Shown in pieces: positions 53,389-58,569 of a DNA stretch of 64,000 bases. This stretch comes from an uncultured bacterium (GTDB taxonomy: Bacteria > Planctomycetota > UBA1135 > GCA-002686595). The notes below the pieces were generated by a model. That model made no database searches. It was not told where the DNA came from and saw nothing but the letters and a program-made list of their open reading frames with translations. The stretch lies in assembly GCA_937905825.1 (NCBI GenBank), contig CALCXM010000155.1:1-64000 (forward strand), given 5' to 3'. The position numbers were made by a program, and so were the translations under genes. How positions within the stretch are numbered: position 1 is the first letter of the stretch; each line of letters starts with the position of its first letter.

Positions 53389-54705
53389 ATGACATCGACG
53401 AAGACGACGACAACTCTGACCTTGGTCCTGCTGCTGATCGGTTCAGTGCTCGCTTGCCTCTTCCTATTGGGCGACGGTCCCGTGCCGGGCGGAGTTTCGG
53501 GCGCAGTTGTTGCGGGAAGCACCTCCCATCCGGCTTCGCGGAACGACTCACCAGCAGAGGAGTCCTTGCCAGCCGCAGACTTGCTCCTAGCCAGCGACTC
53601 AGAATCGCGCGTGCCCCTCGACAAGTCAGGGAAACCGATCGTCGGCGCTGCGAAAGGATGCATCACCGGACGTGTGCTGATTCCCAGAGGGCCAGCAGTT
53701 GGCGCGACCGTCGTGGTCTACCGGCCCGGGGACTACACGAGGTACGAAAACATTGAGCTTGGGCCCATCTTCGAACCCGATGACGAGGCAGAAAGCGAAT
53801 CGGAGAGAAGGTACAGGCGGGCCATCGGAGGGAAGTGGACCTCGAACAGTTCCAACGGGATTCAGGCAAACAAGTCGCGCAAGAAACCAGTTCCCGTAGG
53901 TGTCGACGTGGGATATCTGCTGAGCACCGATCGAGTCGAGACCAACCAGGCTGGCGAGTTCGAGCTCTGCGTCGTCCCCGGCAACTACGTTCTCGAGGTG
54001 ATCATCGACACCAAACGCCGCGAGTCCAGGGTTGTCCAAGTGATGGAGGGCGAGCGCCTTGACCTAGGGGACCTGGAGATCAAGCCCGGTGCCTGCATGA
54101 ACGAGCTAGACGAGATAGCGATGCCACAGCCAAAGCCCGGGACCGTGACCGTCCACACGGGGCATCCCGGTCTGCGCGTGGTGACCACCTTCGAAGACGC
54201 GCTGGAGTCGACCCGACAAACAACGACGGGCCCCGCTGGGGACGCCCTCTTCACCCTGGTGGAATCGCGGCCCCTACGGATTGACCTGATCGACAAGCAC
54301 GACTTCGTCTTGGGCAGCACGGACTCCTTCCAGGCCTACTCCGCCAACGGCCCGACCGAGCTCTTCATCCCCTCGGTCCCTGGTTCCCTGACCATTCGCT
54401 TGCCAGGAGGCGTCGAGGCGCTTGGCGGGGAAACTTACCAGGTTCACCTCACTCGAATTGATAGCCCCGAACTCGACCTGCGCGTGAAGTCGATCGCGAG
54501 CAAGCGCATCCCACTCGCAGAGCAAGGCTTCACTACTTCACCGACCGGCCTCCAGTACAATGCCCTGCGCACGGGTGCCTACGAAGTCAAGGCGATCCGC
54601 CAAACCGTGCCAGCCGGCGCATCCGCTCCGGTCAACACCGGCGAGTGGCTGCGCACCACGGCCCATGTATTTGCAGGCCAAGAGACCCACTGCACGCTCG
54701 AGTAG
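53389..54705 (+). CDS. Membrane-anchored or exported protein, tandem paralogue 1 (possible carboxypeptidase-regulatory-like beta domain)
   Basis: N-terminal TM; GEFELCVVPGNYVLEVIIDTKRRESRVVQVMEGERLDLGDLEI; shares its C-terminal block with the next gene. Confidence 0.8.
   Translation: MTSTKTTTTLTLVLLLIGSVLACLFLLGDGPVPGGVSGAVVAGSTSHPASRNDSPAEESLPAADLLLASDSESRVPLDKSGKPIVGAAKGCITGRVLIPRGPAVGATVVVYRPGDYTRYENIELGPIFEPDDEAESESERRYRRAIGGKWTSNSSNGIQANKSRKKPVPVGVDVGYLLSTDRVETNQAGEFELCVVPGNYVLEVIIDTKRRESRVVQVMEGERLDLGDLEIKPGACMNELDEIAMPQPKPGTVTVHTGHPGLRVVTTFEDALESTRQTTTGPAGDALFTLVESRPLRIDLIDKHDFVLGSTDSFQAYSANGPTELFIPSVPGSLTIRLPGGVEALGGETYQVHLTRIDSPELDLRVKSIASKRIPLAEQGFTTSPTGLQYNALRTGAYEVKAIRQTVPAGASAPVNTGEWLRTTAHVFAGQETHCTLE
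54470..54705 (+). repeat. 236-bp direct repeat, copy 1 (3' end of paralogue 1)
   Basis: Matches 55799..56034 except a few positions (CATGTA/CACGTT, CTC/CTG, stop TAG/TGA). Confidence 0.95.
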
Positions 54706-54708
54706 GGC

Positions 54709-56034
54709 GTGACGAAACAAACGGGAACGCACATGGGCTTCACAAGACGAAGGATCACGCTGGCGGCACTCGCTCTCTGCGTTCTCGTGATTACCCTTGT
54801 CGCGTTGAACCTTGATTCCAGCTCGGAGCCAGCCCGCGCGCTAGTCGTCACGCACCCAGGGGATCATGACTTGAGCTCCGGCTTCCCGGCGGAAACGCTG
54901 CCCCACGCGTCCGACTTGCAAAGCGCACGCATCCCCAGCGAGAACGGAGCGCGAAGTGGGACCCGAATCGGTGCTTCTGGCAAGGGAGCCGTGATTGGCT
55001 TGGTTCTGGCCGGTGGAGAGCCAATGCGCGAGGCGGCGGTGATCGTCTACACGCCGGGCCAGAAAATGGTCTCCCACGCGTTCTTGGAGAAGGCCAACTT
55101 TCTAGCAGGTCGAGCCTACAATGGCCTCGGAACGTGGGGGAGTTTTGAGGACATTACGGGGTGGGACAGGAAGGAAGCGAATGGCGAGACGGAAGGAGGG
55201 CCGCAAGTCGACGTCGGTTTCCTTTTCCCTGAAGCTAGGCAGCTGACATCGGGAAAGGGTGCCTTCCGCATCGAGGCAAAGCCTGGCGCCTATGTGCTCG
55301 AGGTCATCACCCAGCCCCAGGGGAAACGCTGTCGCTGTGTCCCGATCGAAATCGAAGCAGGGGAGACCTTGGACCTGGGGACCCTGAGACTCAAGTCCGG
55401 CGAGGCTCCGGCGCAAGTGGATCCCTTCAAACGAGTCCGCGATGAGCAACGAGCCCGCGATGATTACGGGGTCCTCGTCTTGCACACTGGGCAGCCCGGC
55501 TTGCGCACTCGGATTCAGGCAGAGGGCGAGGGAGGCTCCGCCAACTACCATCGAATGTTCGGCGAAAAGGGGATCAATCTTAAATGGAAGGAGCCGCGCC
55601 CGGTGCGCATCGAACTGCTGGACAAGCACGACTTTGTGGTGGGAAGCACGGACTCCTATCAGGCCTATCCAACACAGGGGACAACCGAGCTCTTCATCCC
55701 CTCCGTTCCCGGTTCCCTGTTCATTCACTTGCCTCGTGGACTGCAGGCGGGAGCAGGGGAGACCTACCAGATCCACCTCATTCGCACGGACAGCCCGCAA
55801 CTCGACCTGCGCGTGAAGTCGATCGCGAGCAAGCGCATCCCACTCGCAGAGCAAGGCTTCACTACTTCACCGACCGGCCTCCAGTACAATGCCCTGCGCA
55901 CGGGTGCCTACGAAGTCAAGGCGATCCGCCAAACCGTGCCAGCCGGCGCATCCGCTCCGGTCAACACCGGCGAGTGGCTGCGCACCACGGCCCACGTTTT
56001 TGCAGGCCAAGAGACCCACTGCACGCTGGAGTGA
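54709..56034 (+). CDS. Membrane-anchored or exported protein, tandem paralogue 2
   Basis: N-terminal TM; GAFRIEAKPGAYVLEVITQPQGKRCRCVPIEIEAGETLDLGTLRL; 3 bp after paralogue 1; start may be 54733. Confidence 0.8.
   Translation: MTKQTGTHMGFTRRRITLAALALCVLVITLVALNLDSSSEPARALVVTHPGDHDLSSGFPAETLPHASDLQSARIPSENGARSGTRIGASGKGAVIGLVLAGGEPMREAAVIVYTPGQKMVSHAFLEKANFLAGRAYNGLGTWGSFEDITGWDRKEANGETEGGPQVDVGFLFPEARQLTSGKGAFRIEAKPGAYVLEVITQPQGKRCRCVPIEIEAGETLDLGTLRLKSGEAPAQVDPFKRVRDEQRARDDYGVLVLHTGQPGLRTRIQAEGEGGSANYHRMFGEKGINLKWKEPRPVRIELLDKHDFVVGSTDSYQAYPTQGTTELFIPSVPGSLFIHLPRGLQAGAGETYQIHLIRTDSPQLDLRVKSIASKRIPLAEQGFTTSPTGLQYNALRTGAYEVKAIRQTVPAGASAPVNTGEWLRTTAHVFAGQETHCTLE
55799..56034 (+). repeat. 236-bp direct repeat, copy 2 (3' end of paralogue 2)
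   Basis: Matches 54470..54705 as above. Confidence 0.95.
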
Positions 56035-56811: not shown

Positions 56812-56866
56812 CAAACGGGTACCCCCGCGCTCTCGGCTTGATCGAGAGCGCGGGGGTACCCGTTTG
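56812..56866. terminator. Perfect 24-bp stem hairpin
   Basis: CAAACGGGTACCCCCGCGCTCTCG-GCTTGAT-CGAGAGCGCGGGGGTACCCGTTTG. Confidence 0.75.
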
Positions 56867-56901: not shown

Positions 56902-58569
56902 TCACTTGAAGCGGTCCCGCTGGCGATCGAACATCTTGTCGGCGCGGGTGCGCGCTGAACCCTTGAGCGCCACGTAGAACTCGATCATCCCCTGGCGAAC
57001 AGCGGCGGCCTTCTCAATCGAAGCGTCGATCTCGCGGCTGGTGTACACGTAGGAGGCCTGCGAGACCAGGCCCGCGTTGTAGTCCATGCACAGGCGCTTG
57101 CTCTTGATGATGACGAGCTGGGCGGCGTGGCCATAGTCGAGTCCCTTCTCCCGGGCCCAGGTGCACTCGGGGCCGAGATTGAAGAAGGAGATATGCAGGC
57201 TGAGTCGCGTCTTCACGCTTGCGGCGATCACGTCCGTGTCGAGTCGCGGGACGGTCACCATGCGCTCGCTCGTGTCGTCCACGCGAACCTTGATGGTGTC
57301 CGTGGTGGGGTCCACTTGAAACTCGCCGACGCTCTCAACGAAGGCATCCCAAGCCTTCATGTCCGCGCGGTGTTTCTCGCTCAGCTCCTCGACGGTCGAG
57401 GCCGGGCGCTTGCCCTTTTGCAGCTCGTTCGTGGATTTTCGTTTCTTGTCCAAACCACCCTTTAGGTCGTCCACAAGGGAGGAACGGCCCCCGAGCTTTT
57501 CGTCCAGGACAGCTTCTAGAGCTGCCTTGCGCTCGTTGAGGCGATTGGTCATCTCTTCGCGGGCGGCGAAGGCGCGGCGCTCGGCCTCCATCAACTCCGT
57601 GAGACGATCGAAGTAGTCTTCCTGGGAGATCACGCTGCTGTTGTACTCGAGGCACAGCTTGCGGTACTTGAGGATCAGGACCTGGGCGGCATCGTCGTAC
57701 TTCGCCTTGGCCTGCAAAGTCCAGTTGATGTCCTTGCCGACGTAGACGGAAACCAACGGCGGCGAGTACTTCATCTGCACGCAGAGGCTTTGCTCGAACT
57801 CTTGCACCAGGCCTTCCACGTCGAGCATCGGAACGGCGATCTGGGACGTGCGTGCCTTGTCCTTCCAGATGTTGATCAGCTTGCGATCCCCTCGGCTCTT
57901 GATGGGCTTGACCTCGAGGGCCGCGTCCAATTCGGCCATGCGGCTTTGAACCGCGCTTTTGGTGCGATCCATCTCGCTGACTTCGGTTGCGTCGAAGACT
58001 TCGTTCTCCGAGGGCAATTTCATGTCATGGGGCCGGATCGTCTCCGCCAGGGTGCGAAAGGCATCGAGGGCGGCGGTGACCTGCTGTTCGTACTCAGCGT
58101 TGCCGAGGGGAGGCAGGTCGATGGCCTCGTCCAACTTGTCGCTAGCCTTCTTGGCCGCCAAGGAAGTGTGAACGGCGAGCTCCATCGAACAGATGCGTGC
58201 CGCCTCGATCCCGTTGAAGATACGCCGCACCCGTCGCTGGTAGGTTTCTAGGGTGAGCTTGCCATCGTTGAACTCGTCGCACAGATCGCGAATTTGCTCG
58301 ATGAGCTTTTGGGCCTTCTCGCTGTACTCGACCCCTTGCTCGCGGGACCAACCGAGGCTGATGCCGACCTGACCGATGCTGCCCCCAGCTCCGATCGAGA
58401 AGGAGGAGGGGTCCGCGATCTCGTCAGGGTCGAGGGTGTCCACCTGGGTTTGGCGCGTGTGGGCGTCATCCACCCAAACGGTGATCTTGTCGGCCAGGGC
58501 CGAGCCGCTCATAGCGAGAGCGACGAGGCAGCAGGCGAGGGTTCGAGTTGTACGAGTGAGCGGATTCAT
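56902..58569 (-). CDS. Exported protein of unknown function with three internal repeats
   Basis: Signal peptide ...LVALAMSGSALA; three units with pattern (I.V..DD...V..LD...Y..AAQ.LI.K.R.LC.(D/E)YN...S...Y). Confidence 0.8.
   Translation of the reverse strand: MNPLTRTTRTLACCLVALAMSGSALADKITVWVDDAHTRQTQVDTLDPDEIADPSSFSIGAGGSIGQVGISLGWSREQGVEYSEKAQKLIEQIRDLCDEFNDGKLTLETYQRRVRRIFNGIEAARICSMELAVHTSLAAKKASDKLDEAIDLPPLGNAEYEQQVTAALDAFRTLAETIRPHDMKLPSENEVFDATEVSEMDRTKSAVQSRMAELDAALEVKPIKSRGDRKLINIWKDKARTSQIAVPMLDVEGLVQEFEQSLCVQMKYSPPLVSVYVGKDINWTLQAKAKYDDAAQVLILKYRKLCLEYNSSVISQEDYFDRLTELMEAERRAFAAREEMTNRLNERKAALEAVLDEKLGGRSSLVDDLKGGLDKKRKSTNELQKGKRPASTVEELSEKHRADMKAWDAFVESVGEFQVDPTTDTIKVRVDDTSERMVTVPRLDTDVIAASVKTRLSLHISFFNLGPECTWAREKGLDYGHAAQLVIIKSKRLCMDYNAGLVSQASYVYTSREIDASIEKAAAVRQGMIEFYVALKGSARTRADKMFDRQRDRFK

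Follow-up and report, generated by a model that had tools for sequence, protein, structure and literature searches.

The minus strand of the 64,000-nucleotide stretch analysed here (the window) carries a gene whose product contains three diverged copies of a unit of about 110 amino acids, an architecture that, together with its history of duplication, is well supported by the sequence comparisons given below. These comparisons point to a real, sparse and unnamed domain family, apparently exported, of which this protein is a triple-module variant. The gene (58569-56902) runs from an ATG at 58569 to a stop codon at 56902 and encodes 555 aa; its GC content by codon position (61/41/82%) resembles that of the neighbouring genes, which indicates that it is coding. 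Its N-terminus, MNPLTRTTRTLACCLVALAMSGSALA followed by DKITV, was judged by eye to be a plausible cleavable signal peptide. The original prediction had called the protein secreted, and the leaders visible by eye in this protein and in its homologues L007 and L008 are consistent with export. The features discussed are the following:

56902..58569, minus strand: whole gene of the putatively exported three-unit protein (P0001, 555 aa), an open frame from ATG with a GC3 of 82%.
58492..58569, minus strand: putative signal peptide, residues 1-26, ending in ALA before DKITV (sequence by eye; similar leader in L007 and L008).
58120..58485, minus strand: unit 1, residues 29-150 (repeat statistics; profile match).
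58279..58281, minus strand: invariant hairpin Cys of unit 1, C97 (LCDEFN; invariant column).
58189..58191, minus strand: second Cys of unit 1, C127, at a position not conserved between units (sequence).
57877..58119, minus strand: linker 1, residues 151-231, not repeated (linker 1 against linker 2 no better than shuffles).
57502..57876, minus strand: unit 2, residues 232-356 (repeat statistics; profile match).
57781..57783, minus strand: second Cys of unit 2, C263, within the beta-rich part (sequence).
57652..57654, minus strand: invariant hairpin Cys of unit 2, C306 (LCLEYN; invariant column).
57295..57501, minus strand: linker 2, residues 357-425, charged, not repeated (linker comparison against shuffles).
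56920..57294, minus strand: unit 3, residues 426-550 (repeat statistics; profile match).
57163..57165, minus strand: second Cys of unit 3, C469, where the beta-rich part ends (sequence).
57088..57090, minus strand: invariant hairpin Cys of unit 3, C494 (LCMDYN; invariant column).
56816..56862, no strand assigned: 20-pair stem-loop, possibly a transcription terminator (consensus scan); it lies about 40 bases beyond the stop codon, between convergent genes.

The three unit pairs gave BLOSUM62 local scores of 104, 130 and 121; shuffles averaged 29-33 (sd 5), and none of 1000 reached the score of any pair. When the units were split in two, the repeat was strong in the helical halves of all three pairs; in the N-terminal halves it was found in pairs 1-2 and 1-3 and was weaker in pair 2-3 (reached by 7 of 1000 shuffles). 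The two linkers are unrelated (score 26, shuffle mean 27). A profile made independently of the three-unit protein, from the single-unit proteins L007 and L008 of two other planctomycete genomes only, matched it exactly three times (33.8, 35.6 and 24.2 bits, over residues 13-126, 229-349 and 425-526), and the best of 2000 shuffled copies of the protein reached 7.3 bits, which rules out chance and artefacts of helix composition. The identity between units is only about 27-31%, as might be expected if the repeat were a chance or low-complexity helical similarity or an artefact of the assembly. Next to no probability remains for such an origin, which is refuted by unit scores beyond every shuffle and by three separate matches to a profile of outside homologues; a recent misassembly is further contradicted at the DNA level, where the units are so diverged that two of the three pairs score within the shuffle range. 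The three diverged copies described in the original prediction are thus borne out, as is the length of the unit; its layout needed correction, because the units begin at residues 29, 232 and 426, at a pitch of about 200 aa produced by the unrelated linkers of about 70-80 aa that separate them.

Each unit consists of a short beta-rich stretch and a helix-turn-helix hairpin with an invariant Cys, and is followed by a helical linker. The hairpin motif of the units is LC..[FYHW]N.G.[ILV][ST]..[ED]Y. The core Cys had been placed in an LC.(D/E)(F/Y)N motif, and it is indeed kept; of that motif with its following Gly (LC.(D/E)(F/Y)N.G), C and N alone survive in every member of the family, together with a D in the N-terminal half. 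AlphaFold placed strands at 2-4 and 12-14 and helices at 56-73 and 79-121 of unit 1 (mean pLDDT 57), and in L007/L021 strands followed by a helix at 63-80 and a long helix from 86 (mean pLDDT 67); the predicted order of beta-rich N-terminal half, helix, turn and long helix agrees between the two models.

There are exactly two Cys in each unit (C97/C127, C263/C306 and C469/C494) and none elsewhere in the mature protein; two are also found in the mature parts of L007 (43, 96) and L009 (50, 100), a pattern suggestive, although not conclusive, of one disulfide per unit. The units might accordingly be redox- or disulfide-controlled modules, with a bond between the invariant hairpin Cys and the other Cys of the unit that a periplasmic thioredoxin-fold protein forms or reduces. 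We consider this improbable, since the second Cys is placed differently in each unit and L008 has three mature Cys. It is also doubtful that the bond would be handled by the redoxin-domain protein with a WCPNC motif encoded by the next gene upstream: redoxin genes are common in the family, including genomes devoid of the unit gene (35/61), so this neighbourhood is probably coincidental. The order redoxin gene, unit gene, M61 peptidase gene found in the window is not kept in relatives, and the redoxin was therefore demoted from functional partner to a rival explanation.

No named family accounts for the unit, and the original prediction likewise knew of none. No Pfam or NCBIfam model reached its curated cut-off for the three-unit protein, its units or its homologues, and the finding that had been named as refuting the prediction, a confident Pfam match of each unit, was looked for and did not appear. 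PHROGs gave no significant match for the unit, no similar solved structure was found among PDB sequences, and the structure prediction and fold comparison proposed at the outset yielded modest models that matched no known fold (nothing at E<=0.001 when two models of low confidence were compared with PDB and viral structures).

The proposed profile search for single-unit homologues, by contrast with these named families, did return relatives: L007 (E 1.4e-16) and L008 (E 3.6e-9), aligned over model positions 2-120 of 125 and thus over both halves of the unit, each about 190-195 aa long with a leader peptide and a helical tail. Clear members are present in three of the 393 Planctomycetota genomes sampled: that of the window, G211 (JACPCR010000057.1, a Planctomycetota groundwater MAG) and G275. 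There was no other copy among about 150 close relatives, including one genome of the same genus. A distant and weaker clade (L009, L025-L027; genomes G200, G505, G519 and G486) was reached via a weak match, with hhalign P values of 2.5e-5 to 4e-5 over 35-43 hairpin columns; its members keep the LC...N hairpin and an N-terminal D......R....D pattern, and their homology across the beta half is likely, though not proven. No homologue was found on plasmids (three queries) or viral contigs (three scans). Scanning 264 billion genomic bases for a DNA motif recovered the gene of G211 itself and two chance matches (GlyA and SecY); other phyla were covered by this one scan, and the distribution may be wider than seen. 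Several weak profile matches were rejected as unrelated from their translations: L010 (macro-domain-like), L012, L015, L036 (a lipoprotein coiled coil) and L038 (a recombinase).

The two single-unit genes share a gene neighbourhood. In both G211 and G275 the same four-gene arrangement was found: a divergent gene encoding an LPP20+DUF4384 protein (41% identity between the two genomes), the unit gene, an LPP20 gene and a second LPP20 gene, some of the LPP20 matches being below the Pfam cut-off. The corresponding loci (L018 3195-7684 and L019 3341-7477), in which the LPP20+DUF4384 protein has a Big_1-like middle and this gene and the two LPP20 genes flank the single-unit gene, are conserved in two genera. 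LPP20-type genes occur in only 33 of the 393 sampled Planctomycetota genomes, yet in all three clear carriers of the unit, and they are absent from the other sampled genomes of the window's family; such a three-out-of-three co-occurrence has a chance probability of 5e-4, or 0.007 when the two sister genomes are counted once. DUF4384 is common in relatives (30/151), so its co-occurrence carries no weight. In the distant clade, the unit-related gene of G200 lies directly before a TPR/PEGA gene and a CsgG gene. A short motif, GDQSPAI..GGD(V/I)(T/N)I.YG, is recurrent (L020 2568-5857, minus strand; L028 1498-1944, minus strand): it stands at the end of the L009 protein, close to the start of the TPR protein that follows, and in another protein of that genome that looks unrelated.

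Lipoprotein genes of the window's genome were found on small contigs (L067 3-2216, minus strand, and L074); their products are an LPP20 protein whose Big_1-like segment runs beyond the contig end, a lipoprotein with TPR, and one that combines DUF4384 with a CsgG-looking part. That this genome has a complete equivalent of the LPP20-DUF4384 protein is unproven (hhalign P 0.007, over a Big_1-like segment only), and its DUF4384 protein is a different lipoprotein.

Taken as a whole, the protein would be an exported, periplasmic or envelope-associated one in which three modules are strung on helical linkers, each module probably comprising a small beta-rich stretch and a SHOCT-like alpha-helical hairpin with the invariant Cys that is prolonged as a long helix. 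The ancestral state was likely the single-module form; the three-unit protein arose by an old internal duplication and would be a three-fold, multivalent binder. The most likely role of the three-unit protein may be that of a periplasmic structural adaptor or scaffold working with outer-membrane lipoproteins of the LPP20/CsgG type, a proposal that we hold tentatively and with somewhat less than even confidence; these partners are proposed because such genes adjoin the single-module versions. We infer the scaffold role from the apparent export, the architecture, the neighbourhood kept in two genomes and the co-occurrence in a third. Several observations count against it: no LPP20/CsgG gene adjoins the three-unit gene, unlike the two known single-unit loci with their LPP20/DUF4384 genes, and the gene order is not kept in relatives; the LPP20-type genes of the window's genome lie on separate contigs, with matches close to the Pfam cut-off (DUF4384 lipoprotein genes are also elsewhere); and two genomes of the distant clade, G200 and G486, gave no LPP20 match. 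The adjacency in G211 and G275 may moreover reflect one shared inheritance, and the structure models are of low confidence and match no known fold.

A leader peptide, repeats and restriction to one lineage (of about 150 relatives, this genome alone has the gene) would also suit a protein on the surface or outside the cell, for example an adhesin or a component of an envelope layer, using its repeats for avidity and having no link to LPP20-type proteins. This seems unlikely to us, given that the single-module relatives are small and lie within a conserved lipoprotein cluster, and that neither a surface-anchor motif nor a beta-sandwich domain was found. Taken furthest, the scaffold reading would have an undescribed exported domain family take part in an uncharacterised envelope complex of the LPP20/CsgG type in Planctomycetota, where both the single and the triple forms would serve as subunits or adaptors and the triple one would stand in for three single ones assembled together; as a complete statement this is rather speculative and has a low probability.

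The analysis contributes an unnamed, apparently exported domain family with a clear evolutionary step from single to triple, in a phylum with a poorly understood cell envelope, and points to a conserved LPP20/DUF4384 gene cluster. Nothing observed contradicts ordinary envelope biology, and what is likely to be gained is an entry for a new domain and a candidate for an envelope complex, not a new principle. Elsewhere in the window, two tandem genes (53389-54705 and 54709-56034, plus strand) encode related exported-looking proteins of 438 and 441 aa, neither with a Pfam match over the cut-off; the two proteins are identical over their final 77 residues (86% identity across the last 450 nt), the genes being diverged elsewhere, a pattern suggestive of gene conversion or of 3' ends under strong constraint.

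Among known domains, the hairpin resembles SHOCT (PF09851) and DUF1707 (PF08044) in its pair of short helices on either side of a G.[IL][TS]..E[FY] turn. The hairpin half of the unit might belong to this superfamily, and the protein would then be exported and use its SHOCT-like modules for localisation or binding: DUF1707 aligned with residues 94-118 (E 0.015, sub-threshold) and TIGR04540 with residues 87-119 (E 1e-4, 22.4 bits, under its cut-off of 50 bits); the unit profile weakly retrieved a classical-SHOCT-looking C-terminal segment, GILTDEEYARKKEDLL (L037, E 0.005); and G.[IL][TS]..[ED][FY] is in register and gap-free in L007. We regard membership as quite unlikely, however, because the SHOCT model gave no match at E up to 1 in the three-unit protein or in eight family members, and because short helical hairpins converge easily, that of the recombinase L038 having also been retrieved. 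SHOCT is a two-helix unit of about 30 aa, and two helices are predicted here as well. In the published description, however, its Gly and Glu are strongly conserved, it lacks a conserved Cys, and it is C-terminal in 89% of its proteins (PMC3581485). The Gly is absent in unit 2 and L009, the Glu before Tyr is absent in units 1-3, and the family has an invariant Cys and internal hairpins, so the units are at most SHOCT-like in shape. They further differ from SHOCT and DUF1707 in reaching no curated match, in including an N-terminal beta-rich half and in standing in triplicate in a protein apparently exported by a leader. The likeness to TIGR04540 (the CLB_0814 family, of unknown function) is confined to 33 hairpin residues of a 73-aa model. 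The proteins of the L009 clade are similar in having a visible leader (L009, L025, L027), the Cys pair, a D......R..(L)D start and an LC..WN...[TV].EEY hairpin; they differ in a shorter beta part, a single copy and TPR/PEGA and CsgG neighbours, one of them being fused to TPR repeats. The single-module proteins of G211 and G275 are true homologues, with one unit, a leader peptide and a helical tail; unlike the three-unit protein, they carry one copy instead of three and sit in the LPP20/DUF4384 cluster.
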